DNA from: a virus
IMG/VR virus record: IMGVR_UViG_3300025098_000347
Span: 1 to 20,773 of that record
Reading direction: 5' to 3' (one strand)
DNA length: 20,773 nt
Shown here: positions 2,010-20,710 of the stretch, one piece after another
How the letters are laid out: every line of letters starts with the position of its first letter
Numbering within the stretch: the first letter of the stretch is position 1
Translations under genes and position numbers: made by a program
The notes under the pieces: model-generated
The model's input: only the letters and a program-made list of their open reading frames with translations
The model's database searches: none
What the model was told of the DNA's origin: nothing

Positions 2010-2347
2010 CATTCAACCTCCAATGTTATGAAGAAATCTACATTTTCTGTAGAGAATGGTCCAACACCTTCAAAATTTAGTCGGGTTAGCATTTTGCTGA
2101 AATCTGCGTTGAATATACCTAACTCTCTTATGGTATATCCAGCGATTGAACCCCCTGCTATTGTAAACTTGAAATCAACTACATTCTCATCCGATTTTGA
2201 AGAGGTAATTGTAGATACATCAAAAATGGGAACATCTAAATTAGTGGTGATGGGGCTACTGTTATTCCCTCCAACACCCACTCTAGCCTTAGTGTAGGTT
2301 GTTTTTAAATAAGTAGCCAAATCCTCTCTAGCACTATCTGTAATCAA
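2009..2347 (-). CDS. Small tail-collar/fibre-attachment-like protein
   Basis: A 112-residue protein between the giant hub and the fibre. The N-terminus (ITDSAREDLATYL) and the C-terminal segment (IAGYTIRELGIFNAD, then beta-rich sequence to FFITLEVE) resemble the N-terminal attachment domain of phage tail-collar fibre proteins, where a Y-T-[IV]-R-E-[LIV]-G-[IVL]-F motif is characteristic. Role by inference: a baseplate adaptor that anchors the downstream fibre. The start is a TTG whose last two bases belong to the TGA stop of the upstream gene. A weak purine-rich stretch (GGGATGTGG) precedes it and no ATG exists nearby, so reinitiation after the hub is likely. Family resemblance is by motif only. 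Confidence 0.7.
   Translation of the reverse strand: MITDSAREDLATYLKTTYTKARVGVGGNNSSPITTNLDVPIFDVSTITSSKSDENVVDFKFTIAGGSIAGYTIRELGIFNADFSKMLTRLNFEGVGPFSTENVDFFITLEVE
2016..2021 (-). promoter_or_regulatory. Shine-Dalgarno deciding the fibre start
   Basis: GGAGGT on the minus strand, inside the last codons of the attachment-protein gene. It lies 6 bases from the ATG at 2009 and 3 bases from the ATG at 2012. The longer spacing is more usual, so 2009 is preferred. Confidence 0.6.
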
Positions 2348-5300
2348 AAGTCCACATCCCTAATTGTTGTAGTTGTTATTGCTGCTGTCCCCATTGGGAT
2401 GCTGAATCCAATTGTTCGGACGAAGCCAATCTTATTAGTTGTTGCCGAAGCCTCTCTCTTTTGAATCAAAAGTTTGCGTTCTCTCAATGAAACCAAGTCC
2501 AAAAGGGAGACATTTTCTTCGGACTGAATGAGGTCTCTTGAACGGAGTTTTGCTTTGTTAGAGTTTGTGGTAATAAGTAATTCAGCGAATCTATCTTCCA
2601 TACCCTTTGAGAATTTTCCGAGTTCCATTTTTATAAACCCATCAATTTGATGCTTCATTTCTAAAATTTGATATTGGTTCTTTGGGATATTTTCTTGAAT
2701 CAATTCAAAAGAAATAGTATCCCCTGCCCTAAGTTGGCTAAAATTAGTATGTCCCAACTCAATGCTGATTCTTTCATTTTCTTTTGAATGAAGTCTTAAC
2801 AATTCCGTAGCCTTATCATCCACATCCTCTTGTGTGAAAATACTAGAGTCTTCCACCTCCAAAGTTTTCTTACCCACCCTTTTGATGCTACGGAGATTAC
2901 TTTTCTTGGAGACATGGCTGGAACCGTAAACAATAATTTCATTGTAGAAATCAAATAATCCACTGGATTTCTTGAAATCCTTAATCTGTAGTTGTTGGTT
3001 CCTATCGGAGATAAACAGTGAAGGGCGTAAATCAACATCATCGGACTCTTTAATCTTAAATTTGTCATCTTCGTAAATCAATTCTTTGTCTTTTCTTTTG
3101 AGGATATAGTTGATAGCAGAGAACAAATTCACACTCTTAAAATTAGGTGCTAAGAAAAGAGGATAGGTTGAATCCGGTATCTCGTATTGGATATCGTTGG
3201 ATTCTAACAAATCATTCAACATATTATCTGCTTCATGGCTGATGTTCACAACCGAACCAATCATGGCTCTTTCTATAGGGGGAACAATATTTGAAGCAGT
3301 TGTAATTGTAAAAGTTTCAGACATAGAGACAAGACCATGTTTCTCTTTCATCTCTCCGAATTCAATGTAAGAACCTTGATTTGTTCCTAAATATCGCTGA
3401 TTAATTGAAGTTTTGTGTTTGTTTATTCCATCTGTGATACACATGGTAAACTGATTTTCGTATAAAGATTCTACATCCGAGAGAATGACATAGGCCTCTG
3501 TATGGGTCCTAGGGACGACCTCTTCTCTATTGCTCAAGAGAAATTCGCTTTGTGCGTCTGTATCAACCAAAACATACATGGATAGAACCGCTTCATTGTG
3601 TCCGATATTACCCCCAAGTGGTGAATCTCTTTCCCCCGAACCAAAGCCTAAAGCGTAATCTCTTGTTGTAGAGTATGTTTTATCTTCATAGGCTATCTTT
3701 GTATATTCGCTAGACAGAGTATTTAATTTAATTTTGTTAGGAGTAAAGTCATAAAAGGCTGTTTCGTTAGGTTGCATGATTCTGTAAAATCCGTTTGCCA
3801 AATCAGCATCAACTTGGATAATGTGAGTTAGCGTAGTGTTGTCTGTCTCAATTTCGTGACTCAAAACATACCCTAAGTTGTTAGGGATTGTATTGTTAAT
3901 CCCCCCCGTTGTTCCTGTGGCTGTCCCTGTTCCGAATTCCTTACCAACTTCCGAAGCCAAATAGCATCCTGTTAAGTCCGTGATATAATCTAGAATTTCC
4001 GAACTGGTAATTCTGTAGAAGTAAATAGTTTTGTTATTAGGTCCAGCGTAAGAATTCTTTGTGATGTTTGATTCGTTCGTATCTAGGTTGAGCCTTGCTT
4101 TGAATCCCATGAATACACCTTCTGCATCAGTAGAAGTTGCACTTCTAGCGCCCCCATTCGGGCCATCCAAAGTCATAAACTGTGTATTCAATCCCATGTT
4201 TACAGTTGTAATTGAGTTTGCATACTTCCGAACATGAGTGTTATCGTTGTAAGTAAAGACTGTCCCCTTGCTCAAAATCTCGTCGCCACGGTTGCCTCCT
4301 TCCACATCGTATCGGTCAAGAACAACACCGAACAAATCTGCTTGGAAGGAATTATCAGCAGTCCCTACTGAATCGGGAAGGCTGTCAATCTTCTTCAACC
4401 ATCGGCTAGGATGCCCTGAGACGCTATTCCCAATTGTTTGATTGTCGTTGAAACTTAGCGGTAGAATAACATTGGAGAGATTGGTAGCGGTGCTTCCGCC
4501 AGCCTCATTGAAGTCATTTCCAAAGACCGTGGTAAATTCGGAATTAGTGTATGCGTCGTTGTGAAGCGTTCCTCGGTGGAGAGTGATACCTCTTTCAAAC
4601 TGGACGAGTGAATCTTTTTCTCCATGACCTTTGAGAGTACCCTTGCTAATTGTAGCCTTGTAGAGGGTTCCTGTGTAAGCAGAACCGTTGTTTGTTGGGA
4701 TGGGTGCGGCGTTGAGATTGATTGTGAATGGAGACGAGGTAGGATTCTGCGCTCCATTAGCAGTTCCGATGAGATTACCCGCAGAGTCTACAAGCAATTC
4801 ATTATCTGCTACGGTCACGCTACCCGATAAAGAAATAGAAGTTGAGCCATAAGAAGAAACAGTTACGCTGAGAGATGAAATAGTGTGATAGTGATAGATA
4901 AACGACGGTATCTGCTTTGTTTTTCTAGGAGGCTTTTCAGCGTTAAATTGATTGAATGCAGTATCAAAAACCAATTCTGTAAGTCGCATAATACCTGTTC
5001 TTTTCAGTTGGACGATATCCTTATCCACTTCTATTATTCCAGCGTCAATGTAGGTCTCGTCTGTATATTTTACAGTAGAACCTCTTGATGAATATTTAGA
5101 TTGTCCTTCTGAAAAGGAACCTTCTGTAGGTTCCCCCAATAGCATAAGTTTGAATTTTTTCAAGTCATCTTTTTCCGTAATTATATTTCCTACTCTTCCT
5201 GTTCCGATAGAGAAAGTCATATTGAAGATGCTATCGCTCCTCTTGCTGGAATAGGGTGTTGAATCACTAGTTGAAAACAAAAATAGTCTTCTAGATTTAG

Positions 5301-8300
5301 GGTCAAATTGTTCCAAGTAATCCTTAACGAGATATTTTGATTTTGTTATTTCTGTGTTTATCGTCGGTGGTGTGACATCTACAATAACAGGCTTCGTATG
5401 ACCGGATTCATACACATCGTAATCAAAGAAAAGAGAACCTGCGGCAGGGGAATTACCTCTTGCTTCTATCGGTAAATGATTGCTGTTCGTGAATTTAAAG
5501 TCTCTACCTATTGTTCCATTATAATATACTGCACTCTCAAAATGTCTTACAGGATTCACCTTATAGCAAGAGGCATAATACTTGATTTTACTACCCCCCT
5601 CATAGTAATTATTTTCAAAATTTTGGGCAGAAGTTGTGATAGAACGAGAAACGAAATCAAATACCCCTTTTTCCAAGTGCATAATTCTGTATTGAGGAGT
5701 CCCGTATCTTTCCGTAGTGGTAGCGCTTTGGGAGCGCTGTCCGGTATAAGTCACAAATGTTCCAGCCTTATTATTGAAGAAAAGAGGGTGTAAAAGTGAA
5801 ACGAATTTGCCTCCATGTAAGTGCGCTCCATTCGTTAAATACAAATCTTGAGTATATTTCTCTTCATAGTTTTGTCCACCAACAGGAGAGAAATCATCTA
5901 ATATCTGCACTGCATCACTGGCCGAATGTGAAATAGGCCTATCCACATATATTTTCCAATTACTACTTGTGCTTTCCTTCACAACTTGAACAACATATCC
6001 TACGAATGCCCCTTCAATGTAGAGGGGGTCTTTTTCGGAAGGAGAATTAACGATTGAAGAAACAGACACATGCCTAATATTGTTAGAGGCACTTGCGGAA
6101 CCCACCGCACTACCTACTAAAGCCAAATCCACATCAGTGACATCTGCATCATTGAAATCCATTCTACCTAAAGTGACAGGAACATAAGGTGCGAGTTCAA
6201 AAGTAGTTTTACCGTCTTTCGTATTTTGCGAAATAACAGTAAAATCAATTAAAGTGTTTACAGTATCAAAACCGGCATAACCTACAGAAGAAGCACCATC
6301 AGTCAGTTCTGCTTGGAATGGGTTATCCTTCCCTATTTTTGAAACATTATGTAAATGATAACCTATTGCATTATCGTTATCGGATTTGCTCGTCTTAACA
6401 AGTGTAGAATTGTTAGCGATATCTAAACCCGACTCAAAGAATATACCCTTCTCCGAATGCCCGATAAGGCTTGTCGTAGTTTCCGCTACACGATTATTTG
6501 ATGATAGGGCCTTATTGAATAGGTAGGATTTTTGATTTGATTTCCAAATGTTGCGAGTGGTAAAGGTGGGAGTTCCGACTCCCCCAACTGTGAGTTCACC
6601 CGTGGAAGCAAAGGCGTGAGTTTCTAAAGTCACTACCTTTGAGGAAGAGTTGTAAGTAGAAACTCTACCAATATAAGAAAAATTGTTGTTGGTGTATTGA
6701 ACATACAAATCATCTCCTGTTGTCGGTGCAGAAGTGACAGAAATAAGCGTTAGGGTATTAGATGAAAAGTTCACTGTGTTGGATGTTCCGCAAGAAATTG
6801 CTGTTTTAAATGGGCTATCGGACGAATAGATGATATCCTTAGAACTGAGATAATTTTTAGTTATGATAGGGGAGATGAGTTTAGCGTATGTGCTACGACC
6901 GTACACTTTCATAAAATTTTGACCGAATTCTCTCTCAGTATCAATTTGTTCAACTGTTCCTTCAAATCTCTCAATCTCAATAGAATAGATTCCACCGATA
7001 AAACCAATGTTAGACTCCGACTCATAAAGAGAATTATCAAAAGATAAAGAGAGTGTTTTGGTAGTAGCATTAGAAGAAGAAACAGTAGCCTCTAATAAGT
7101 TGCTAAAAACAACTTTGATATTGTAATGTCTATTTTCTACGATTTTAAATGTTGTCAAAAGATTTCCTTTTGATTGACTCCATGCTCTCCTAAACAGCCT
7201 ATCGCCGGAGGAGGCTATACCCGTAAGGCTCGTGGCCGCAAAAGTTGGAGAAGACTCTAAACGAGTGGATGTTGTCATAACGATAGTTTGTTGATTGGAG
7301 GAAAACGAACCAATAGCACTACCAGTTGTAGCGATAATGTAAATTCTATCTCCTATTTTAATTTCGTCTCCTTCTGCTAAAAGAGTAGATAAATCATACT
7401 CTGTATTGAAAACAAAATTTGTTCCGGACTGGCTAGAAATAGTAGCCTTTAATGCAAAAAATTCACTTAGGTCTGCTGAATGTAGTCTGTGCCTTACACG
7501 AAGAAGGTCGTCGTTTTTTATTTTGGACGACAGAATTCTTTGTGTGTCAATCAATTTAATTTCTGCATATCCACCCTTTTCGCCTATTGATTCAAAAACA
7601 GTAAAATCAGTTAAAGAAAAATTAGTGTTTGCTTTCTCCGGAGAGTAAGAATAATGTGTATATCTGTATGGGCCTGTCAGCGCCAAAGTAGACGCATCGG
7701 TTTGGTCAAATACATCATTAGCATCTCTTCTAGCATTAAAGAAACACCTACTGTAATCCGTAAAGTCGTTAGATGGTAAAGTAAATCCCTCACTAGAGGT
7801 AATAGAATTTTTTGTAGGGTCATCTAGATTTTTTAAGTTATCTACTAAGTTTGCTTTAATCGTATATTTACTATAATCTATGATTCTAGTAGAAAATGCT
7901 GTTGTAGTAATAAACGCATTATTCACATTAGGAGTAATGGTTCCACTAGCCGAAGTAATGTATTTAATGAAATATTTAGTGCTATGGTCTAATTCGTTTT
8001 TCTTATCCAATCTATCCGAAAAGAAATAGAATAGAGGTCTAGCGCAAATATACGATTTATCGTATCGGTATGTGGAAGAACCGGAAGTAATGTTTTCCGG
8101 TTTGATTCCGGCAGATACCGCAACAATGGAAGTTTCTGTTTTCAAGGGTCCACGGAAAATCATAAATTTCGTATCCTTGGCTAGTCCTTTACCCAATCTA
8201 GGCTCAAAATCAAATCTGTCACCGGAAACTTCATCCTGTTTTATTTCAGTTATTTTGGCAAAATGGTGTTGTAGTAAATCATCCGAATGAATTAAAACGA

Positions 8301-8646
8301 AATAATCATAGTTTTGTGAAGATATAGGAGAAATACCATTCAATTGTATTCCGGTTTGTGAGAAATCATCCCAACAATGAATAGAATACCCTTCGGTATC
8401 ACTGAGATTAGAATACTCTGTTCCCGCCGAATCGCTACCTTGTAGTTGTTGAACAAAGTCTTGGCTATGAGAGCCGTCTGTGGAAATATAAGAAAACATC
8501 CTGTGACCACTAGTGACAGAACCAGCATCACTAACAAACATAGGATTGGTTGGACAATCAAAATTGATGTTGTTTGTTGCATCATTGATTGTTGTGACAA
8601 CCGTTGGGTTGGGAGAAGTGCCTTTACGCATAGCAAAAATAGCCAT
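2344..8646 (-). CDS. Giant tail hub/baseplate protein (2100 aa)
   Basis: The largest gene here. The C-terminal part (about residues 1780-2060) looks like a tail-hub domain of the gpD/gp27/siphovirus tail-associated type: a segment predicting helix then strand (AINYILKRKDKELIYEDDKF), a beta segment ending in YNEIIVYGSS, and the AGDTISFEL ... YQILEMKHQIDGFIKMELG pattern, which recalls the G-D-x-[VI] ... Y-x-[IV]-x-x-x-x-H motif near the end of hub proteins. The first about 1750 residues are Ser/Thr/Asn-rich and beta-like with no recognised enzyme motif. They may form a tail-tip spike or central fibre comparable in role to lambda gpJ. The ATG follows a GAGGTGGAT site and overlaps the upstream TAA by one base (TAATG). 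Order (distal tail, LamG protein, this gene, fibre) agrees with a hub/tip role. Seen: position, length and C-terminal pattern. Inferred: hub function. The fusion of hub to a huge N-terminal extension is unusual. Confidence 0.7.
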   Translation of the reverse strand: MAIFAMRKGTSPNPTVVTTINDATNNINFDCPTNPMFVSDAGSVTSGHRMFSYISTDGSHSQDFVQQLQGSDSAGTEYSNLSDTEGYSIHCWDDFSQTGIQLNGISPISSQNYDYFVLIHSDDLLQHHFAKITEIKQDEVSGDRFDFEPRLGKGLAKDTKFMIFRGPLKTETSIVAVSAGIKPENITSGSSTYRYDKSYICARPLFYFFSDRLDKKNELDHSTKYFIKYITSASGTITPNVNNAFITTTAFSTRIIDYSKYTIKANLVDNLKNLDDPTKNSITSSEGFTLPSNDFTDYSRCFFNARRDANDVFDQTDASTLALTGPYRYTHYSYSPEKANTNFSLTDFTVFESIGEKGGYAEIKLIDTQRILSSKIKNDDLLRVRHRLHSADLSEFFALKATISSQSGTNFVFNTEYDLSTLLAEGDEIKIGDRIYIIATTGSAIGSFSSNQQTIVMTTSTRLESSPTFAATSLTGIASSGDRLFRRAWSQSKGNLLTTFKIVENRHYNIKVVFSNLLEATVSSSNATTKTLSLSFDNSLYESESNIGFIGGIYSIEIERFEGTVEQIDTEREFGQNFMKVYGRSTYAKLISPIITKNYLSSKDIIYSSDSPFKTAISCGTSNTVNFSSNTLTLISVTSAPTTGDDLYVQYTNNNFSYIGRVSTYNSSSKVVTLETHAFASTGELTVGGVGTPTFTTRNIWKSNQKSYLFNKALSSNNRVAETTTSLIGHSEKGIFFESGLDIANNSTLVKTSKSDNDNAIGYHLHNVSKIGKDNPFQAELTDGASSVGYAGFDTVNTLIDFTVISQNTKDGKTTFELAPYVPVTLGRMDFNDADVTDVDLALVGSAVGSASASNNIRHVSVSSIVNSPSEKDPLYIEGAFVGYVVQVVKESTSSNWKIYVDRPISHSASDAVQILDDFSPVGGQNYEEKYTQDLYLTNGAHLHGGKFVSLLHPLFFNNKAGTFVTYTGQRSQSATTTERYGTPQYRIMHLEKGVFDFVSRSITTSAQNFENNYYEGGSKIKYYASCYKVNPVRHFESAVYYNGTIGRDFKFTNSNHLPIEARGNSPAAGSLFFDYDVYESGHTKPVIVDVTPPTINTEITKSKYLVKDYLEQFDPKSRRLFLFSTSDSTPYSSKRSDSIFNMTFSIGTGRVGNIITEKDDLKKFKLMLLGEPTEGSFSEGQSKYSSRGSTVKYTDETYIDAGIIEVDKDIVQLKRTGIMRLTELVFDTAFNQFNAEKPPRKTKQIPSFIYHYHTISSLSVTVSSYGSTSISLSGSVTVADNELLVDSAGNLIGTANGAQNPTSSPFTINLNAAPIPTNNGSAYTGTLYKATISKGTLKGHGEKDSLVQFERGITLHRGTLHNDAYTNSEFTTVFGNDFNEAGGSTATNLSNVILPLSFNDNQTIGNSVSGHPSRWLKKIDSLPDSVGTADNSFQADLFGVVLDRYDVEGGNRGDEILSKGTVFTYNDNTHVRKYANSITTVNMGLNTQFMTLDGPNGGARSATSTDAEGVFMGFKARLNLDTNESNITKNSYAGPNNKTIYFYRITSSEILDYITDLTGCYLASEVGKEFGTGTATGTTGGINNTIPNNLGYVLSHEIETDNTTLTHIIQVDADLANGFYRIMQPNETAFYDFTPNKIKLNTLSSEYTKIAYEDKTYSTTRDYALGFGSGERDSPLGGNIGHNEAVLSMYVLVDTDAQSEFLLSNREEVVPRTHTEAYVILSDVESLYENQFTMCITDGINKHKTSINQRYLGTNQGSYIEFGEMKEKHGLVSMSETFTITTASNIVPPIERAMIGSVVNISHEADNMLNDLLESNDIQYEIPDSTYPLFLAPNFKSVNLFSAINYILKRKDKELIYEDDKFKIKESDDVDLRPSLFISDRNQQLQIKDFKKSSGLFDFYNEIIVYGSSHVSKKSNLRSIKRVGKKTLEVEDSSIFTQEDVDDKATELLRLHSKENERISIELGHTNFSQLRAGDTISFELIQENIPKNQYQILEMKHQIDGFIKMELGKFSKGMEDRFAELLITTNSNKAKLRSRDLIQSEENVSLLDLVSLRERKLLIQKREASATTNKIGFVRTIGFSIPMGTAAITTTTIRDVDF

Positions 8647-12720: not shown

Positions 12721-12727
12721 TCACCCC
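12721..12727 (-). promoter_or_regulatory. Shine-Dalgarno overlapping the tail tube stop
   Basis: GGGGTGA on the minus strand contains the TGA stop of the tail tube gene and lies 4 bases before the TTG start at 12716. Termination and reinitiation are probably coupled. Confidence 0.7.
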
Positions 12728-14262
12728 TGCAAAATCCAATGAGTCTTGACGGTGCATGAGTTGAGCGTTCTTGGAACGATTGTAGCCTCTACCATGACGG
12801 CCCCTTTATCTTCGGGGATGGGCCAACTGTTCGTCGTTAGCATGTAGTTGTCAAACTTGAGTCGGATTTGCTCTCCGTTTGACTTGTCAAAGATGAGGTC
12901 AATCAAGGCCCCACTACTTGCGGATTGATTTTCGTCTTGTTCTTTCAATTCGTTGAAGAGTTTATCATCGGTGACAAGTGCTGTAAAGGATAATTCGTAG
13001 GTTCGCTGTGCAGGAATAGCATCCTTAACAGTCTTGGAACCAACGCCAATGAATCTCTTATCTGTAAGAGTGTTGTTCATCGTCAATGTAAAGTTCGTAA
13101 TCCGCAAGAAGTTTTGTCCGAATAGGCTAATTGAACCTCCGGAGAAAAAGAATGGTTCTAGGAATTTATCGTTAGCGGAATAATTCTTGAACGAAGTTTC
13201 ATCCGTGACCGAGCGACGAGCCGCATATTTTTCCCCCTTGGTTAGATTGTGAAGTTTACGAGGCATGGTATCAAGAGTCATTTTCAACTCTTCATTTTCG
13301 TTTGCTGTCATTGTAAGAGTGTTCACTCTGTTTCCTGTAGCGATAAGAACGAAGTTGGTATCCTCGTCTGCATCGGCAGTATTCGTGCTGTAAGTGTTCG
13401 CAGAAGGAAGTTTAGAAAAGACTTGTTCCATAGCGAAGGAAGGCAAATCGTCTCCATCTTGTTCCGAAAAAGTGTAAGTGATGGGATTTGAAATTGTAGT
13501 AGTTCCACTAGGCTCTGTTAGATGGTCTAACTCAGCGAAAGCATCTGTCCCCCTTAGAACGGGCGGAACCATGCCATTGTCAATACTACGATAAAATAGT
13601 GGGCCAGTATCTCCTACGCTCGTTCCATTTAGGAAGTATTTATTTCCACCGCCGCCTTGGAAATCGCTGGCAGGATTGGTTGAAGCATCTAGAGTAGCAG
13701 TAATCGCAGAACACTTACCAAAGAAATAATAGAGCCAAGCACCATGGTTAGCGACAACATTTACGCTAGCATTTCCAGCAGTTTCAATTCCCTTATACTG
13801 ATAGGTAAAGTTTCTACTACCGCCAACAAATAAGTTCTGTTGCTTGAATTCTACTTCAAGAGATGGGAAGGTCAAGGATTCTAGAATACCCATCCAATAA
13901 TCGGCGTTCAAATGTTTTAGGTTAGAAGCGCCACTATTTGCAGGGCAAGGCGCACCGTAGCCTTTCAAGTGATAATAGTCGTTAGTAGCATCAAGGGTAA
14001 TTGATTGAGCAGGATGGAAAGTAATGGTAGTGGAGGTGTTTCCTGTAATTCTATGGGTAGTGGTATGGGTTCCATTGTCATAAAACTCAAGAACACACCC
14101 TACATACAAATCAGTGACCAAATCAAACCTACTTGTAAAATCGGAATGTAGAGTCAATTCGTTTTTATCCGAGTTCAAACTTGCCGGTTTCAAATAAATA
14201 TCAACTTCGGGAACAAATGTTACCGATGAACCGCTTCCTAAAAATATATTCGTGTTAGCCAT
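12721..14262 (-). CDS. Major tail tube protein
   Basis: A probable tail tube subunit of 513 residues, about twice the length of many tube proteins (lambda gpV is about 250). It is beta-rich throughout. Segments SLEVEFKQQNLFVGGSRN (about 135-152) and the C-terminal block LIDLIFDKSNGEQIRLKFD ... NSWPIPEDKGAVMVEATIVPRTL (about 455-500) fit tube-like sandwich proteins, the latter resembling strands that close the tube barrel. Residues about 200-340 look like an inserted domain exposed on the tube. Support for function is position: after the neck genes and before the chaperone pair and tape measure. The ATG follows GGAAGTGGGATT, a modest ribosome site. A hairpin precedes the gene and another lies past its small downstream partner, which may enrich this mRNA. 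No sheath gene is present, so the tail appears non-contractile. Confidence 0.7.
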   Translation of the reverse strand: MANTNIFLGSGSSVTFVPEVDIYLKPASLNSDKNELTLHSDFTSRFDLVTDLYVGCVLEFYDNGTHTTTHRITGNTSTTITFHPAQSITLDATNDYYHLKGYGAPCPANSGASNLKHLNADYWMGILESLTFPSLEVEFKQQNLFVGGSRNFTYQYKGIETAGNASVNVVANHGAWLYYFFGKCSAITATLDASTNPASDFQGGGGNKYFLNGTSVGDTGPLFYRSIDNGMVPPVLRGTDAFAELDHLTEPSGTTTISNPITYTFSEQDGDDLPSFAMEQVFSKLPSANTYSTNTADADEDTNFVLIATGNRVNTLTMTANENEELKMTLDTMPRKLHNLTKGEKYAARRSVTDETSFKNYSANDKFLEPFFFSGGSISLFGQNFLRITNFTLTMNNTLTDKRFIGVGSKTVKDAIPAQRTYELSFTALVTDDKLFNELKEQDENQSASSGALIDLIFDKSNGEQIRLKFDNYMLTTNSWPIPEDKGAVMVEATIVPRTLNSCTVKTHWILQG

Positions 14263-14995: not shown

Positions 14996-16120
14996 TCAAT
15001 CAATCAAATACAACAAGTCTTTCTTCCCATCAAGGATTTCCATAGCCTCTTTTCGGAGAATGTCATACTTTTCCTTGGTAGAAATATTTCCTCCTGTATC
15101 AGCAATAAGAATAGTTTGGTCATCGTGTCTCAGTATTTCTGCTGCTGATAATTTAGTAGCAGCCTCATGGATAGCAGAAGGCACCCTACCATCACCAGCA
15201 ATGAAATTTACAATGACAGAGTTTTTGTTGTGGTAAGGGTATCTCTTCATAAAAAAAATCCTACCATCATTATCCATCATCCAAAAGTCCCCTAATCTTC
15301 TCATCTCTTGCTTATCTGTAAAGGGCTCAAGAATGGTGTTAGAGTTTTCTCCTGCTTGGTCGGATACAGTTATTTGGCAATCGGACCCATCTTCTCCCTC
15401 TAAAAGGCTAGAAATGTGAATCTTACTTCCATCTTGTTTATCCGTATAAGCATAAAAAAAGTCGGATATGTTGTAGGAGTTAGGGCTAGAGGTTAATGCT
15501 TTCTCGGAAGTGGCTCCTGTAAATTGTGCTGTTTTTGCAGGAAACTCTTCGTTGATTAGGGCAACAATCTCCTTTGCTGTGGTCTTAGCCCCGAAAGAAG
15601 AATTGAATCTAGCAGCGTTTACTACTGGTGTATCTGTATGGGCATGATATTTCAATTCCCAAACATTTCCGGAATTCGGCAATTGTAATGTGATTTTATT
15701 GATTTTAGTATAGTCGCTAGCATCCAAAGTAATGCTTGCTTGTGCAGAAGCAAGTTCTCTGTAGTTATTACCTTCCCAAACTTGTAGACTAACAATCTTT
15801 CTAATCTTCATTTGGTTAAGTTGAACAAAACCAACATAGCCGCCATAGTAGGAATTGATAGGATGTCTTGTAAATTCAAAATCTCTAAATTCATCCTTCC
15901 AAATAATAGGGCGATAAGAACGCCCTACTTTATCATCAATTGTTCCTTCCACCCTTTTGATAATGCTACCGATTTGAGCATCAGTAGGATTTGTTAAGGA
16001 AGTAAATGCTGGAATTTGTAAAAGGTCGGAAATAGCGTCTTTATTTGTGTAAAAGCCCTTTCCTTGGGAATAATTGACATCAATATTTGTGTAGTCGCTT
16101 GGGGATGATGATACAGGCAC
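14996..16120 (-). CDS. Head-tail connector-like protein
   Basis: A 374-residue protein whose N-terminal part resembles head-completion adaptors of the gp6/gp15 type: LLQIPAFTSLTNPTDAQIGS then IIKRVEGTIDDKVGRSYRP, a helix pattern ending in D-x-x-[VT]-G-R-x-[YW] that such adaptors share. A beta-rich insert spans about 90-310, and the C-terminal helices (EAATKLSAAEILRHDDQTIL, EKYDILRKEAMEILDG) return to the helical core. Adaptors are normally 90-150 residues, so the insert makes this one large and possibly exposed at the neck. GTG start after GGAGGG at about 6 bases, two bases after the upstream TAA. Adaptor role is inferred from pattern and order. Confidence 0.6.
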   Translation of the reverse strand: MPVSSSPSDYTNIDVNYSQGKGFYTNKDAISDLLQIPAFTSLTNPTDAQIGSIIKRVEGTIDDKVGRSYRPIIWKDEFRDFEFTRHPINSYYGGYVGFVQLNQMKIRKIVSLQVWEGNNYRELASAQASITLDASDYTKINKITLQLPNSGNVWELKYHAHTDTPVVNAARFNSSFGAKTTAKEIVALINEEFPAKTAQFTGATSEKALTSSPNSYNISDFFYAYTDKQDGSKIHISSLLEGEDGSDCQITVSDQAGENSNTILEPFTDKQEMRRLGDFWMMDNDGRIFFMKRYPYHNKNSVIVNFIAGDGRVPSAIHEAATKLSAAEILRHDDQTILIADTGGNISTKEKYDILRKEAMEILDGKKDLLYLID

Positions 16121-17515: not shown

Positions 17516-18208
17516 TCACATTAACCATTTAGCCCAAGCCGCACCCTTTTGGATAGCAGAACCTAGATGTAGGCCGCTAGATGGCGGCTCATAACTTGTC
17601 TGTCCTGTTTTGGGGTCAATCCAATATGGCCTTCCATATCCATCTTGTCCCGAAGGGGGGATAGGATATCCAGTTCCATTATTCACGGCCCCTTGCATTT
17701 GATTATATTGCTGAGAATGTCCAGTCACTCCCGCTATAGCCATGCCTGTATTGGGTTGCATTGGTTGTTGCATCTGTTGTTGCATTGGCATTCCTCCTCC
17801 CATATTAGAATTAAATCCTTGAGATTCAAGATATTGTTGTTTTGCCATTTTTCTTTGCATAACAACTTCACTATCTATGGCCGAATTCACAATAGCATTA
17901 ATGTCTAATTGAATATTTTCTTGAGTGATTTTTTCGTATTCTCGGAGACAATCCGGATGAACTGACATCTTACCAGTAGTAGAGTCTTGAACAAATTCAA
18001 TTTTAGAAAGCATTTGGCTAACAACTCTTTCCATAACATCTTCCATCATTTTCTCAAAGGTTGTCAAAAATTTAACTCCATGGTATTGGAAAAATTCTTC
18101 TACATGGTTGTCTTGTAAAGAAAGAAGATTGTTTACTGTTTTGAATTGTGTATCTTGTGATGCGCTAATTGCACCCACGATGTCTTTATTGTTTGGACCA
18201 AATACCAT
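17516..18208 (-). CDS. Met/Gln-rich protein with WW-domain-like C-terminal motif
   Basis: A 230-residue protein of three parts (residues counted from the ATG at 18208). The N-terminal part (about 1-125) is helical, rich in Met/Glu/Val, probably oligomeric. Residues 125-180 are low-complexity Gly/Met/Gln/Pro (MPMQQQMQQPMQPNTG), a flexible linker. The end, about residues 184-210, contains GYGRPYWIDPKTGQTSYEPP, which follows the second half of the WW-domain pattern (G-R-x-Y-[YW]-x-[DN]-x-x-T-x-x-[TS]-x-[WY]-x-x-P) with Tyr in place of the second Trp and the first Trp absent. WW domains bind Pro-rich peptides; the neighbouring zinc protein has Pro-rich stretches. ATG at 18208 has GGTGA at 5 bases; the in-frame GTG at 18217 lies inside that site and is rejected. 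No family recognised. Confidence 0.65.
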   Translation of the reverse strand: MVFGPNNKDIVGAISASQDTQFKTVNNLLSLQDNHVEEFFQYHGVKFLTTFEKMMEDVMERVVSQMLSKIEFVQDSTTGKMSVHPDCLREYEKITQENIQLDINAIVNSAIDSEVVMQRKMAKQQYLESQGFNSNMGGGMPMQQQMQQPMQPNTGMAIAGVTGHSQQYNQMQGAVNNGTGYPIPPSGQDGYGRPYWIDPKTGQTSYEPPSSGLHLGSAIQKGAAWAKWLM

Positions 18209-18209
18209 T

Positions 18210-18842
18210 TTATTCACCTTTTCCTTGTACCAAGAATTCCATTCTTTCTAGTGCTGTCCTAACTTCTTGGGTTATTCTAATGACTTCTTGAGGAGGAGTT
18301 TCTTCTGCTTCTTGTTGAGGCGGTTTTATAATCCACCCTGCACTAGTAAGAGAAATAACATCCTCCCTTGTCAATGTGGTGGCTGGCCCTTTAGATAAGA
18401 CTTGTGGCAATCTAGGCTTCGGTATGAATGCTTTAAAATCTAACCCATGTTCTTCTGCCATTATTTGCTGCTGTAACATTTCCATTTGTTTATGAAAACC
18501 AGCGTGCTTTGGGCAGTATGTCCCCCTCATTGGTCTACCTTTTTCTACATGAGTTAAGGGTATAGGGGGTCTCATGTAGTCTCCTGCTTCCCAAACCTGA
18601 TGAGTGCCGCAAACAACACACCGTTCTTTGAGATTAAATTTCCAACTGTAATTGATGAATAAGAATTTTTTCTTTTCAGCCATCAATACCTTTCTAATCT
18701 CTTTGAGCCTTTTCTTTGGCTTGAGAGTCCTGTATTGATATTCTTCTACTGGCCCACTTGCTCTCGCTTGAACAAGAGGCGGTAAAAATGGGTTGCTTGT
18801 CTGTGCTGATTGTGCGCCTATTAAGTTTGGTTGTTGATACAT
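18210..18842 (-). CDS. Zinc-binding protein with CxxC...CxxH site
   Basis: A 210-residue protein of unknown role. Residues C75-x-x-C78 and C110-x-x-H113 form a probable zinc site of treble-clef or ribbon type, set in CVVCG ... YCPKH. The 31-residue spacer is rich in Pro/Tyr/Gly (DYMRPPIPLTH). A basic segment precedes it (KPKKRLKEIRKVLMAEKKKF, about 41-60), and Pro/Gln-rich ends flank the core (NPFLPPLVQ and PPQQEAEETPPQ). The latter are plausible partners for a WW-type module such as that in the next gene (inference). ATG after GGTGA at 6 bases. It may bind nucleic acid or proteins; no enzymatic motif. The gene follows the GTPase by 10 bases. Confidence 0.65.
   Translation of the reverse strand: MYQQPNLIGAQSAQTSNPFLPPLVQARASGPVEEYQYRTLKPKKRLKEIRKVLMAEKKKFLFINYSWKFNLKERCVVCGTHQVWEAGDYMRPPIPLTHVEKGRPMRGTYCPKHAGFHKQMEMLQQQIMAEEHGLDFKAFIPKPRLPQVLSKGPATTLTREDVISLTSAGWIIKPPQQEAEETPPQEVIRITQEVRTALERMEFLVQGKGE
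18214..18218 (-). promoter_or_regulatory. Shine-Dalgarno deciding the 18208 start
   Basis: GGTGA on the minus strand, 5 bases before the ATG at 18208. It also contains the alternative GTG codon at 18217, which is why the longer reading is disfavoured. Confidence 0.7.
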
Positions 18843-18852
18843 TTTTCTTCAC

Positions 18853-19515
18853 CTAGTAATCTTTAATCATTGTAGTGACTCCACGATAAACCATTTCGGG
18901 TTGAGACTTAGCCGATACTATGTATTTGAATGTCGGTATCCCTCGTTCATTTAGTTTTTGCATCCCGTAATGAAAAGGTTCAAAAATTGGGTGTTTACTA
19001 ATGTCTCCATCGTATTTGTATTTCTCTCCCCACATGTCGTATTTATTAGCCCAAATACTGATTGCTAAAGGGAAATCCTCTTCCTTTTTCTTTTTACCGT
19101 TGGGCCAACGAGAGGAACATATTGAGTCTACTAAAAATTTCCATGCTAGTTGATGGTCCAAATTAGCGCTGCTATCCAAATGTCTATGGTCAATCATAAA
19201 GATAATATATCTAACCTTTCTACTTTTCATATCTTTAACCCATTCTTTCCAATAAATAGATTCTCCTCCGATATCCGAAGAGCGTATGGTATGTAATTCT
19301 CCTTCAAACTTTATTCTTTTGCGGGTTGCTCTATGAACACCAACGGTTCTTTCCTTGATTTGCGCTACCTCTCCCCTTGTTCTTAATTGGTGGCTCAATG
19401 TTGTTTTCCCAACCATTGTTGCCCCATAGACTCCGAAATTTATTGCATGAATTTTTTTGTAAAATCCTATAATTGCTTCACCGACAAGAATAGCAAAGCC
19501 TGTCATTAATGACAT
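18853..19515 (-). CDS. Ras/Arf-superfamily small GTPase
   Basis: A 220-residue small GTPase. All five G motifs are visible and in order: P-loop G31-ATMVGKT-38; switch I Thr (T57 in ERTVGV); DIGGE at 81-85 (switch II, the D-x-G-G form typical of Arf, SRP-receptor-beta and MglA-like GTPases, with Glu where Arf has catalytic Gln); NKYD at 157-160 (guanine specificity); SAK at 201-203. It should bind GTP/GDP and act as a molecular switch; hydrolysis may be slow without the Gln, as inferred from family knowledge. The N-terminus (SLMTGFAILVGEAIIGFY) is a hydrophobic helix, recalling the membrane-binding N-terminal helix of Arf. A Lys-rich insert is at 140-145 (GKKKKEE). ATG at 19515 with GGGTGATTAA upstream; the ATG at 19506 would be too far from that site. 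Its neighbours include two membrane proteins. Confidence 0.85.
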   Translation of the reverse strand: MSLMTGFAILVGEAIIGFYKKIHAINFGVYGATMVGKTTLSHQLRTRGEVAQIKERTVGVHRATRKRIKFEGELHTIRSSDIGGESIYWKEWVKDMKSRKVRYIIFMIDHRHLDSSANLDHQLAWKFLVDSICSSRWPNGKKKKEEDFPLAISIWANKYDMWGEKYKYDGDISKHPIFEPFHYGMQKLNERGIPTFKYIVSAKSQPEMVYRGVTTMIKDY

Positions 19516-19519
19516 TTAA

Positions 19520-20071
19520 TCACCCAAAGTATTTTTCCAACATTTTTTTCATATGTTCTTTTACTTCCATTACATCTTCATCTAGCGATAGTTCCATTCC
19601 TGCTGAACTTCTAAAGTATCCTGTAATTTTAGGATGGTTATATTCCGTCGCATCATTTATCAAATCCATTAACTCCGTCACCTTCCTTTTTACTACATCG
19701 TCGGGTAGATATTTGTATGCTATATCTTTATCATGTGAAATACCTCTTGGCATTCCCATCTCTTTTTTGTTTCTTATGTTTCTATTAACGGTATATTCTT
19801 TGTCGCCTTCCAACCGTTTTTCTTTATTTGTTTTCAGGGCTTGCTTTATCATAGGCTTTCCTTCGTCCTTTATTGAATATATTTTAGAACCAAAAAAAGC
19901 ATAAATCAACGCTTCATCTAAAGAAGGAGTCCAATATTCAGTATCTTCCCTTCCTTGTGTTCCTTGAAACAATTTACTGTAAGTATTGATGTAATCCTTT
20001 ACTGGGGAACCATCTAAATCAAAAATAGTAGATTGTATTTTGTAAGGTGATTTGAGGATGTCCTTCCACAT
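19520..20071 (-). CDS. Unknown protein with a WTPSLDEALIYA segment (183 aa)
   Basis: Not confidently recognised. Residues 34-68 (LFQGTQG, then EYWTPSLDEALIYAFFGS and KIYSIK) have the layout of the first two motifs of ADP-ribosyltransferase-like folds ([YF]-[RQ]-G-[TS] ... W-[TS]-[PS]-S-x-x-x-A-x-x-[YF]-[AG]), but the usual Arg is a Gln and no convincing catalytic Glu motif follows, so this is only a hint. The rest is charged, with a basic middle (about 78-110) and an acidic helical C-terminus (LSLDEDVMEVKEHMKKMLEK, about 161-180). No signal peptide or membrane segment. ATG two bases after the stop of the membrane protein, with GGGTGGGGG upstream. It lies 4 bases before the GTPase, so the two are surely co-translated and perhaps work together. 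Confidence 0.55.
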   Translation of the reverse strand: MWKDILKSPYKIQSTIFDLDGSPVKDYINTYSKLFQGTQGREDTEYWTPSLDEALIYAFFGSKIYSIKDEGKPMIKQALKTNKEKRLEGDKEYTVNRNIRNKKEMGMPRGISHDKDIAYKYLPDDVVKRKVTELMDLINDATEYNHPKITGYFRSSAGMELSLDEDVMEVKEHMKKMLEKYFG

Positions 20072-20072
20072 A

Positions 20073-20294
20073 TTAATGCCCCCACCCGTTTAACAAAGTG
20101 TCAAACAGAAACCCCATGATATTGATGTCAAGGACAACCCCGATAATATTTCCAGTGAGGAACGAAAAAAGTGCTATACTACTTCCCCAAAAAAGCATTC
20201 TCATCTTCAAAAAGAAGATATCCGCCGAATGCGCTCTTTGTTGGTTGTAGGCGTAATCGGATTCGGAAAACCCCATTAAGTCTCCAAGAACCAT
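20073..20294 (-). CDS. Small membrane protein (73 aa)
   Basis: A 73-residue protein with a hydrophilic N-terminus (MGFSESDYAYNQQRAHSAD, about 7-25) and one or two membrane-spanning stretches: FWGSSIALFSFLTGNIIGVVL (about 35-55) and IMGFLFDTLL (about 59-68). Resembles holins in size and layout, but holin function is not shown; a membrane anchor for the neighbouring GTPase or a virion-associated membrane protein are alternatives. ATG follows GAGGTGA at 6 bases, a strong site that overlaps the stop of the preceding gene. No family recognised. Confidence 0.65.
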   Translation of the reverse strand: MVLGDLMGFSESDYAYNQQRAHSADIFFLKMRMLFWGSSIALFSFLTGNIIGVVLDINIMGFLFDTLLNGWGH

Positions 20295-20305
20295 ATGGGT
20301 TCACC

Positions 20306-20710
20306 TCATTGAAGTTGAGATAAGAATTCCGCACCTAAATCATTATCTTCAATAGTTTGGTAAGTGGTGATATCGGGAATCCTTGTCGTATTGAAGTCTT
20401 GTTGGAATGTTTTTAGAGAATCCTGCATTCTTTTTCTCTGTTGTTCTTCCTTGTTCTTCATCTTCCAATAAGATTCAATTCTACGGTCAAGAAGGCCTTG
20501 TTCTATGTAGTCATTGAGAAAGAGGTCATTGAGGGCTTTCATAATCAAAATAGCACCAACTGTAATGAGCCCAAATAAGACCCCATGCGCTAAATGCGTG
20601 TATGGGAATTGTGTCCCAAATTCTGCATAGAAGAAAACATTTGCTCCGCTAACTACCCCTACAAAAAGAATAGTCATAATCAACCGTGTGTCTGCGTTAA
20701 GAGCCGCCAA
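20306..20710 (-). CDS. Two-pass membrane protein with cytoplasmic helical tail
   Basis: A 134-residue protein. Membrane segments at about 9-28 (RLIMTILFVGVVSGANVFFY) and 40-59 (LAHGVLFGLITVGAILIMKA), joined by a short loop with HLAH. From about 60 a charged helix with coiled-coil-like heptads (EQGLLDRRIESYWKMKNKEEQ) forms a soluble tail of about 75 residues ending in GAEFLSQLQ. By the positive-inside rule the tail would face the cytoplasm (KNKEEQQRKR is basic). TTG start at 20710 with GAGGTG upstream and a T-run between; no ATG nearby. Unknown function; with the next gene it forms a membrane pair upstream of the GTPase. Confidence 0.65.
   Translation of the reverse strand: MAALNADTRLIMTILFVGVVSGANVFFYAEFGTQFPYTHLAHGVLFGLITVGAILIMKALNDLFLNDYIEQGLLDRRIESYWKMKNKEEQQRKRMQDSLKTFQQDFNTTRIPDITTYQTIEDNDLGAEFLSQLQ

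Follow-up and report, generated by a model that had tools for sequence, protein, structure and literature searches.

The window analyzed here, a stretch of 20,773 nucleotides from virus record IMGVR_UViG_3300025098_000347, encodes a protein of 220 amino acids (aa) that is, judged by its sequence motifs and predicted fold, a genuine small GTPase of the Ras superfamily. It forms a virus-specific family of its own, which is Arf-like in switch II and in build without being Arf proper, and its gene is one of five that stay together as a cassette in two clades of archaeal tailed viruses. The open reading frame (ORF) lies as follows.

18853..19515, minus strand (19515->18853): small Ras/Arf-like GTPase, 220 aa, ATG start, motifs G1 to G5, fold model

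The plus strand of this interval is full of stops. On the minus strand the G motifs occur in order: G1 at 31-GATMVGKT-38 (followed by T39), G2 at T57, G3 at 81-DIGGE-85, G4 at 157-NKYD-160, and G5 at 201-SAK-203. Residues G31, G36, K37, T38, T57, D81, G83, G84, E85, N157, K158, D160, S201, A202, and K203 are invariant in 64 close homologues, counted as distinct sequences with the window's own included. The five motifs at family spacing that a preliminary description of this DNA had reported are thus present and conserved, with the strand corrected to minus. Altogether 279 distinct homologues were recovered; they fall into two deep clades of archaeal tailed viruses, and G1, G3, and G4 are retained across them. 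The dN/dS ratio of the ORF was 0.03 to 0.14 in the pairs with usable, unsaturated dS, which indicates purifying selection. Among the 279 homologues, the position of Arf Gln71 is Glu in all of clade 1 and mostly Gln in clade 2, where some sequences have Glu or Asp and His occurs once, and it changed at least nine times on the tree. This means that Glu85, first taken to predict an altered hydrolysis rate, is not peculiar to this protein but a clade-wide residue at a position where Gln, Glu, and Asp interchange. Because an acid or amide is kept there, the family is likely an active hydrolase. The hydrophobic N-terminal helix described earlier was also recovered, as a hydrophobic stretch at residues 2 to 19 modeled as a helix at 2 to 22, but with a Kyte-Doolittle maximum of 1.62 it is only borderline as a transmembrane (TM) segment. 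The corresponding helix in clade 2 is less hydrophobic (maximum, 0.94).

The AlphaFold2 model of the GTPase (44-sequence alignment; pLDDT 81, pTM 0.80) shows the canonical small-GTPase topology, b1-a1-b2-b3-a2-b4-a3-b5-a4-b6-a5, with the single helix ahead of it. A Foldseek search of the PDB with this model gave 1412 matches at E values of ≤0.001 with GTPases at the top, namely Rab33, Rab3, and Rab1 first and Arl8b in the top 20 (E values of 4e-9 to 6e-8). With VIA-align, the best matches were Arl6, Arf6, Arf1, and Arl1 (Z of 15 to 16, rmsd of 2.6 to 2.8, about 160 residues aligned), followed slightly lower by Asgard Arf-related and RagA-like proteins and by Rab/Ras proteins at a Z near 14, where Z differences under 1 are to be read as ties. 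The comparison of a model with known structures, proposed when the protein was first described, therefore returned a Ras-like fold and not a structure lacking it.

By sequence, the protein is far from all known families. A profile of the GTPase matched Rab33B among PDB sequences (E value of 6e-5), and 44 family members compared with Pfam matched GTPase families only, bar one weak AAA_14 match. The window's protein scored below cut-off against MMR_HSR1 (8.5e-4), Roc (0.011), and SRPRB (0.11), and likewise against NCBIfam small_GTP (17.5 bits; cut-off, 42.5). The SRPRB family PF09439 reached 12.3 bits with a cut-off of 25, and weak Pfam similarity to SRPRB was found in 17 of the 44 members (best E value of 8e-4). 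No match to the Arf family PF00025 was found in the window's record, and only 4 of the 44 members gave one (best E value of 0.021). Nor does the protein have the Arf D-x-G-G-Q motif, which reads DIGGE here and in all of clade 1, with Gln only in much of clade 2, or the Arf myristoylation site, since residue 2 is Ser and not Gly and the N-terminal helix is hydrophobic with a low hydrophobic moment. The Arf-like switch II noted at the outset is borne out, as GKTT and DxGG are present and Arf/Arl proteins are the top structural neighbors in VIA-align; taken to mean Arf proper, this likeness fails on PF00025, the catalytic Gln, and Gly2. What the protein does have are the features of Ras-like (TRAFAC) GTPases: ordered and conserved G1 to G5, the NKxD guanine motif, and, in the predicted fold, a single Ras-like domain of about 20 to 25 kDa. 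Its distance from all known families in sequence, combined with this fold, places it in a family of its own within the Ras superfamily. Scores under the cut-off of every curated library may explain why the GTPase seems to be unnamed. It is hardly credible that an ordinary phage P-loop ATPase or kinase was misread as a GTPase: the best PHROGs match, to a Sak4-like protein, was weak and covered the P-loop only (E value of 0.17), against which stand the invariant NKxD, DxGG, and T57, the Ras-like topology, and the GTPases leading the 1412 PDB matches. A profile search thus did not place the protein in such a family, the outcome that had been named as contrary to a GTPase.

Among 50,697 phage records (INPHARED) there was no credible relative; the best match of the clade 1 query had an E value of 1 (RNA polymerase genes), and the clade 2 query had none. 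The 50 predicted viral structures closest to the model all came from giant eukaryotic viruses. Both results agree with the original remark that Ras/Arf-type switches are rare in viruses of prokaryotes. A scan of genome contigs gave a single match, the 12.2-kb contig NZMJ01000024.1 (L265) in a Maricaulis MAG, which bears the GTPase gene and the gene for the zinc-motif protein described below. Maricaulis was rejected as a cellular carrier, as this contig looks like misbinned viral DNA. Record IMGVR_UViG_3300021958_000021 (L145, L149; 184,733 bp) contains two nonidentical GTPase genes separated by about 92 kb, has twice the usual genome length, and is probably two joined genomes.

Several traits point to magroviruses. 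All ten related long contigs (88 to 118 kb) encode Cpn60 and a family B DNA polymerase; in clade 1, the polymerase match was split in two in three of the four contigs. The major capsid protein (MCP) of clade 1 matched only Druskaviridae and methanogen viruses among the phage records, in agreement with the MCP relationships reported for magroviruses (PMC8651126). A DNA ligase lies ahead of the prohead protease (both names read from translations), an order noted in a group A magrovirus (PMC7318539). The contigs share with Magrovirales a Druskaviridae-related HK97 MCP, PolB, Cpn60, a genome size in the range of 90 to 118 kb, and replication genes on the strand opposite to the late genes (PMC10768690, PMC12999244). 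In genome size, form of the polymerase, and opposite orientation of the modules, clade 1 is consistent with Aoguangviridae-like viruses and clade 2 with Apasviridae-like viruses (PMC10768690, PMC12999244). No tRNA was found in the pieces scanned, and a search for MCM stayed below cut-off. The case that both clades are magroviruses is strong but indirect, and this placement in turn suggests Marine Group II/Poseidoniales archaea as hosts.

In the window, the GTPase gene is accompanied by the following genes.

20306..20710, minus strand: cassette gene 1, 134 aa, two predicted TM segments (10-28 and 39-57), then a charged, probably helical tail
20073..20294, minus strand: cassette gene 2, 73 aa, one predicted TM segment (37-55)
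19520..20071, minus strand: optional inserted gene, 183 aa, N-terminal MWKDILK, in 16 of the loci searched
18210..18842, minus strand: cassette gene 4, 210-aa zinc-motif protein, C75-x2-C78 ... C110-x2-H113, 10 bases past the GTPase stop
17516..18217, minus strand: cassette gene 5, 233-aa Gln-rich protein

The order is the same in both clades: two-helix membrane protein, one-helix membrane protein, GTPase, zinc-motif protein, and Gln-rich protein. The two membrane genes were upstream of the GTPase gene in 231 of 231 loci (114/114 in clade 1 and 117/117 in clade 2), and the zinc-motif and Gln-rich genes were downstream in 241 to 242 of 242 (105/105 in clade 1 and 136 to 137 of 137 in clade 2). 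When clade 1 loci with enough sequence were sampled by way of the MCP and not the GTPase, the GTPase gene was present in 55 of 55, 1.3 to 2.6 kb after the MCP gene, which makes it a core gene of clade 1. The statement that the GTPase adjoins two membrane proteins holds for most relatives, where the membrane genes are directly upstream, but not for the window, where the optional 183-aa gene intervenes. The proposed setting in a late structural operon with membrane proteins nearby was upheld by the late strand of capsid and tail genes and by the constancy of the membrane genes. The GTPase does not belong with tail morphogenesis, however; it is a core gene of a cassette of five genes that relocate together.

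Comparison of independent profiles with hhalign showed that the zinc-motif families of the two clades are homologous (probability of 96.9, E value of 1e-10), as are the Gln-rich families (probability of 97.9, E value of 4e-13). The membrane proteins of clade 1 showed no detectable sequence similarity to those of clade 2 (hhalign probability below 2), and a shared role is suggested by their same place in the cassette. In the zinc-motif protein, C75, G79, C110, and H113 are invariant in both clades, and the C75-x2-C78 ... C110-x2-H113 arrangement resembles a zinc site. Its AlphaFold model (pLDDT 82) matched no fold in the PDB (best Foldseek E value of 2.6; best Z of 2.6), so that no longin domain, as in the partner of SRPRB, was recognized in it, and its sequence had no PDB match. 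Searches run alongside gave no match in PADLOC and only scores below cut-off in NCBIfam. Roadblock, the MglA-type partner, had no Pfam match among the neighbors, and no known partner of the GEF, GAP, roadblock, or longin types was found for the GTPase. Promoter and terminator scans were at chance level only. Of the clade 2 loci, 136 of 137 have a sixth gene after that for the Gln-rich protein, encoding a membrane protein of 77 to 88 aa (for example, L323:12341-12607); no clade 1 locus has it.

The N terminus of the optional 183-aa protein carries a motif, M-x-W-x-D-I-L-K, which also begins 15 different late-strand ORFs, and no others, within 79 kb of contig G001 (clade 1). Inside proteins it occurred once in 17,241 residues, and 160 kb of clade 2 sequence lacked it. 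ORFs with the motif lie in L518 and L519 (many) and at L017:1660, and L518:17083-19725 together with the start of L519 holds a tandem array of late-strand paralogues opening with MxWxDILKETITQSRVKEIEDIDIDIEDDDC. The motif resembles a common leader, presumably comparable to the capsid targeting sequence of T4.

The position of the cassette in the genome differs between the clades. Downstream of it, the window contains the following.

14996..16120, minus strand: head-tail connector-like protein (HVTV-1 gp125, E value of 1.7e-15; clade 2 protein, E value of 7e-50), marking the insertion site
12721..14262, minus strand: tail tube protein (Pfam Phage_tube_2, 6.5e-12; HVTV-1 gp128, E value of 3e-19)
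2344-8646, minus strand: ORF of 2100 aa, tail region; probable tail tip or receptor-binding protein

The clade 1 order is TerS-TerL-protease-MCP-cassette-connector-tube-tape measure, whereas that of clade 2 is cassette-TerS-TerL-protease-MCP-connector-tube. The clade 2 homologues of clade 1 genes occur in the same order (MCP, 1e-89; connector, 7e-50; neck, 4e-13; tail tube, 1e-31), and TerS and TerL of clade 2 also have homologues in clade 1. The late genes are therefore collinear, and the cassette alone differs in place. HVTV-1 has the same order from MCP to tail tube, with homologous connector and tube, and the cassette is absent at the syntenic site. Since the five-gene block relocates intact while its neighbors stay collinear, this pattern is best explained by movement of the cassette en bloc, with the five genes forming a single functional unit separate from the head-tail machinery.

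We tentatively favor, at close to an even chance, a model in which a membrane-anchored GTPase is the switch subunit of this conserved late module and times a late membrane step. That step would most likely be egress or membrane-linked virion assembly or maturation, our first choice because the cassette genes share a strand and an operon with capsid and tail genes. The N-terminal helix would tether the GTPase to the host membrane, next to both membrane proteins, and GTP binding would order switch I (T57) and switch II (DIGGE). The zinc-motif and Gln-rich proteins could then be recruited to the GTP-bound form, acting as its effector or regulator, and hydrolysis, with Glu85 (Gln in many relatives) positioning the water, would free them. 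Such a cycle would set the moment of a membrane event late in the infection of Marine Group II archaea. Against this model count the borderline TM character of the helix, weaker still in clade 2, the MCP-related haloviruses without a cassette at the syntenic site, and the dissimilar membrane genes of the clades.

Other readings explain part of the same evidence. The location among capsid, connector, and tail genes would also suit an entry complex carried in the virion. Its five proteins would be packaged and then injected, or inserted into the host membrane, and the GTPase would drive or gate delivery of the genome; in haloviruses, too, the gene immediately ahead of the connector encodes a small TM protein (HVTV-1 gp124). 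We consider this unlikely, as capsid and tail genes keep their order when the cassette relocates, which is not how virion core genes behave, and tailed-virus virions are not known to contain a nucleotide switch. A soluble assembly checkpoint, at which the GTPase licenses a head, neck, or packaging step as Era-like GTPases do in ribosome assembly and the membrane genes are bystanders, appears improbable to about the same degree. In its favor are the genes next to the cassette, connector in clade 1 but terminase in clade 2, and the presence of MMR_HSR1 among the best Pfam matches; against it, the membrane genes are never lost from the loci examined, and related haloviruses manage assembly with no cassette at the corresponding site. 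Less probable again is an effector aimed at the host, which would imitate or titrate one of its membrane GTPase systems and divert membrane or secretion traffic. The Arf/SRPRB-like architecture with its hydrophobic helix and the host-like Rab/Ras proteins of giant viruses would agree with such a role; a core, invariant gene that is not patchy, deeply diverged from cellular families and bound to its own partners, would not.

Returning to the membrane-switch model, no mechanism is established for the exit of tailed archaeal viruses from cells without peptidoglycan, and a switch protein that is encoded by a core gene and has constant membrane partners offers a concrete, testable way into this question. 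A bolder reading, which we regard as rather doubtful, is that the cassette is an undescribed viral membrane machine for egress or membrane-dependent maturation, with an Arf-like switch, its own membrane platform, and effectors; it would be the first nucleotide-switch-controlled exit of a tailed virus. Magroviruses are described as among the most abundant viruses of the plankton (PMC10160649). A literature search, which fell short of the primary magrovirus papers so that a prior mention is possible, found no GTPase tied to them. Provisionally, then, it appears to be unreported that tailed archaeal viruses have a small-GTPase gene that is both core and bound to a cassette, and for the five-gene system no described counterpart was found, although the small-GTPase fold is already known. 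An Arf/Ras-type switch thus occurs in the core gene set of a group of tailed prokaryotic viruses and not in eukaryotic giant viruses alone, and the family adds a diverged branch for studies of small-GTPase evolution.

Compared with known systems, the late operon of Druskaviridae (HVTV-1, HCTV-1) has homologous MCP, connector, and tail tube genes in the same order, but its interval from MCP to connector contains none of the genes for the GTPase, the zinc-motif protein, and the Gln-rich protein. Arf/Arl proteins, including the Asgard GerdArfR1 and HodArfR1, share with the viral protein a Ras-like G domain, GKTT in G1, D-x-G-G in G3, and a hydrophobic helix before strand 1, whereas the viral protein has Glu at Arf Gln71 (clade 1), Ser2 instead of Gly, a Pfam Arf score below cut-off, and a cassette of its own. 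SRPRB (SR-beta), a membrane-anchored Arf-like GTPase, likewise has an N-terminal hydrophobic anchor directly ahead of the G domain; the viral protein scores below its cut-off, no longin-type partner was found, and the partner gene encodes the zinc-motif protein without a known fold. The Rab/Ras-like GTPases of giant viruses (Edafosvirus, Pithovirus, Klosneuvirus, and Tupanvirus) are also virus encoded and have the same fold. However, those are annotated as Rab, Ras, or Ran and belong to eukaryotic viruses, whereas the family of the archaeal tailed viruses is diverged, universal in its virus clade, and fixed in a cassette.
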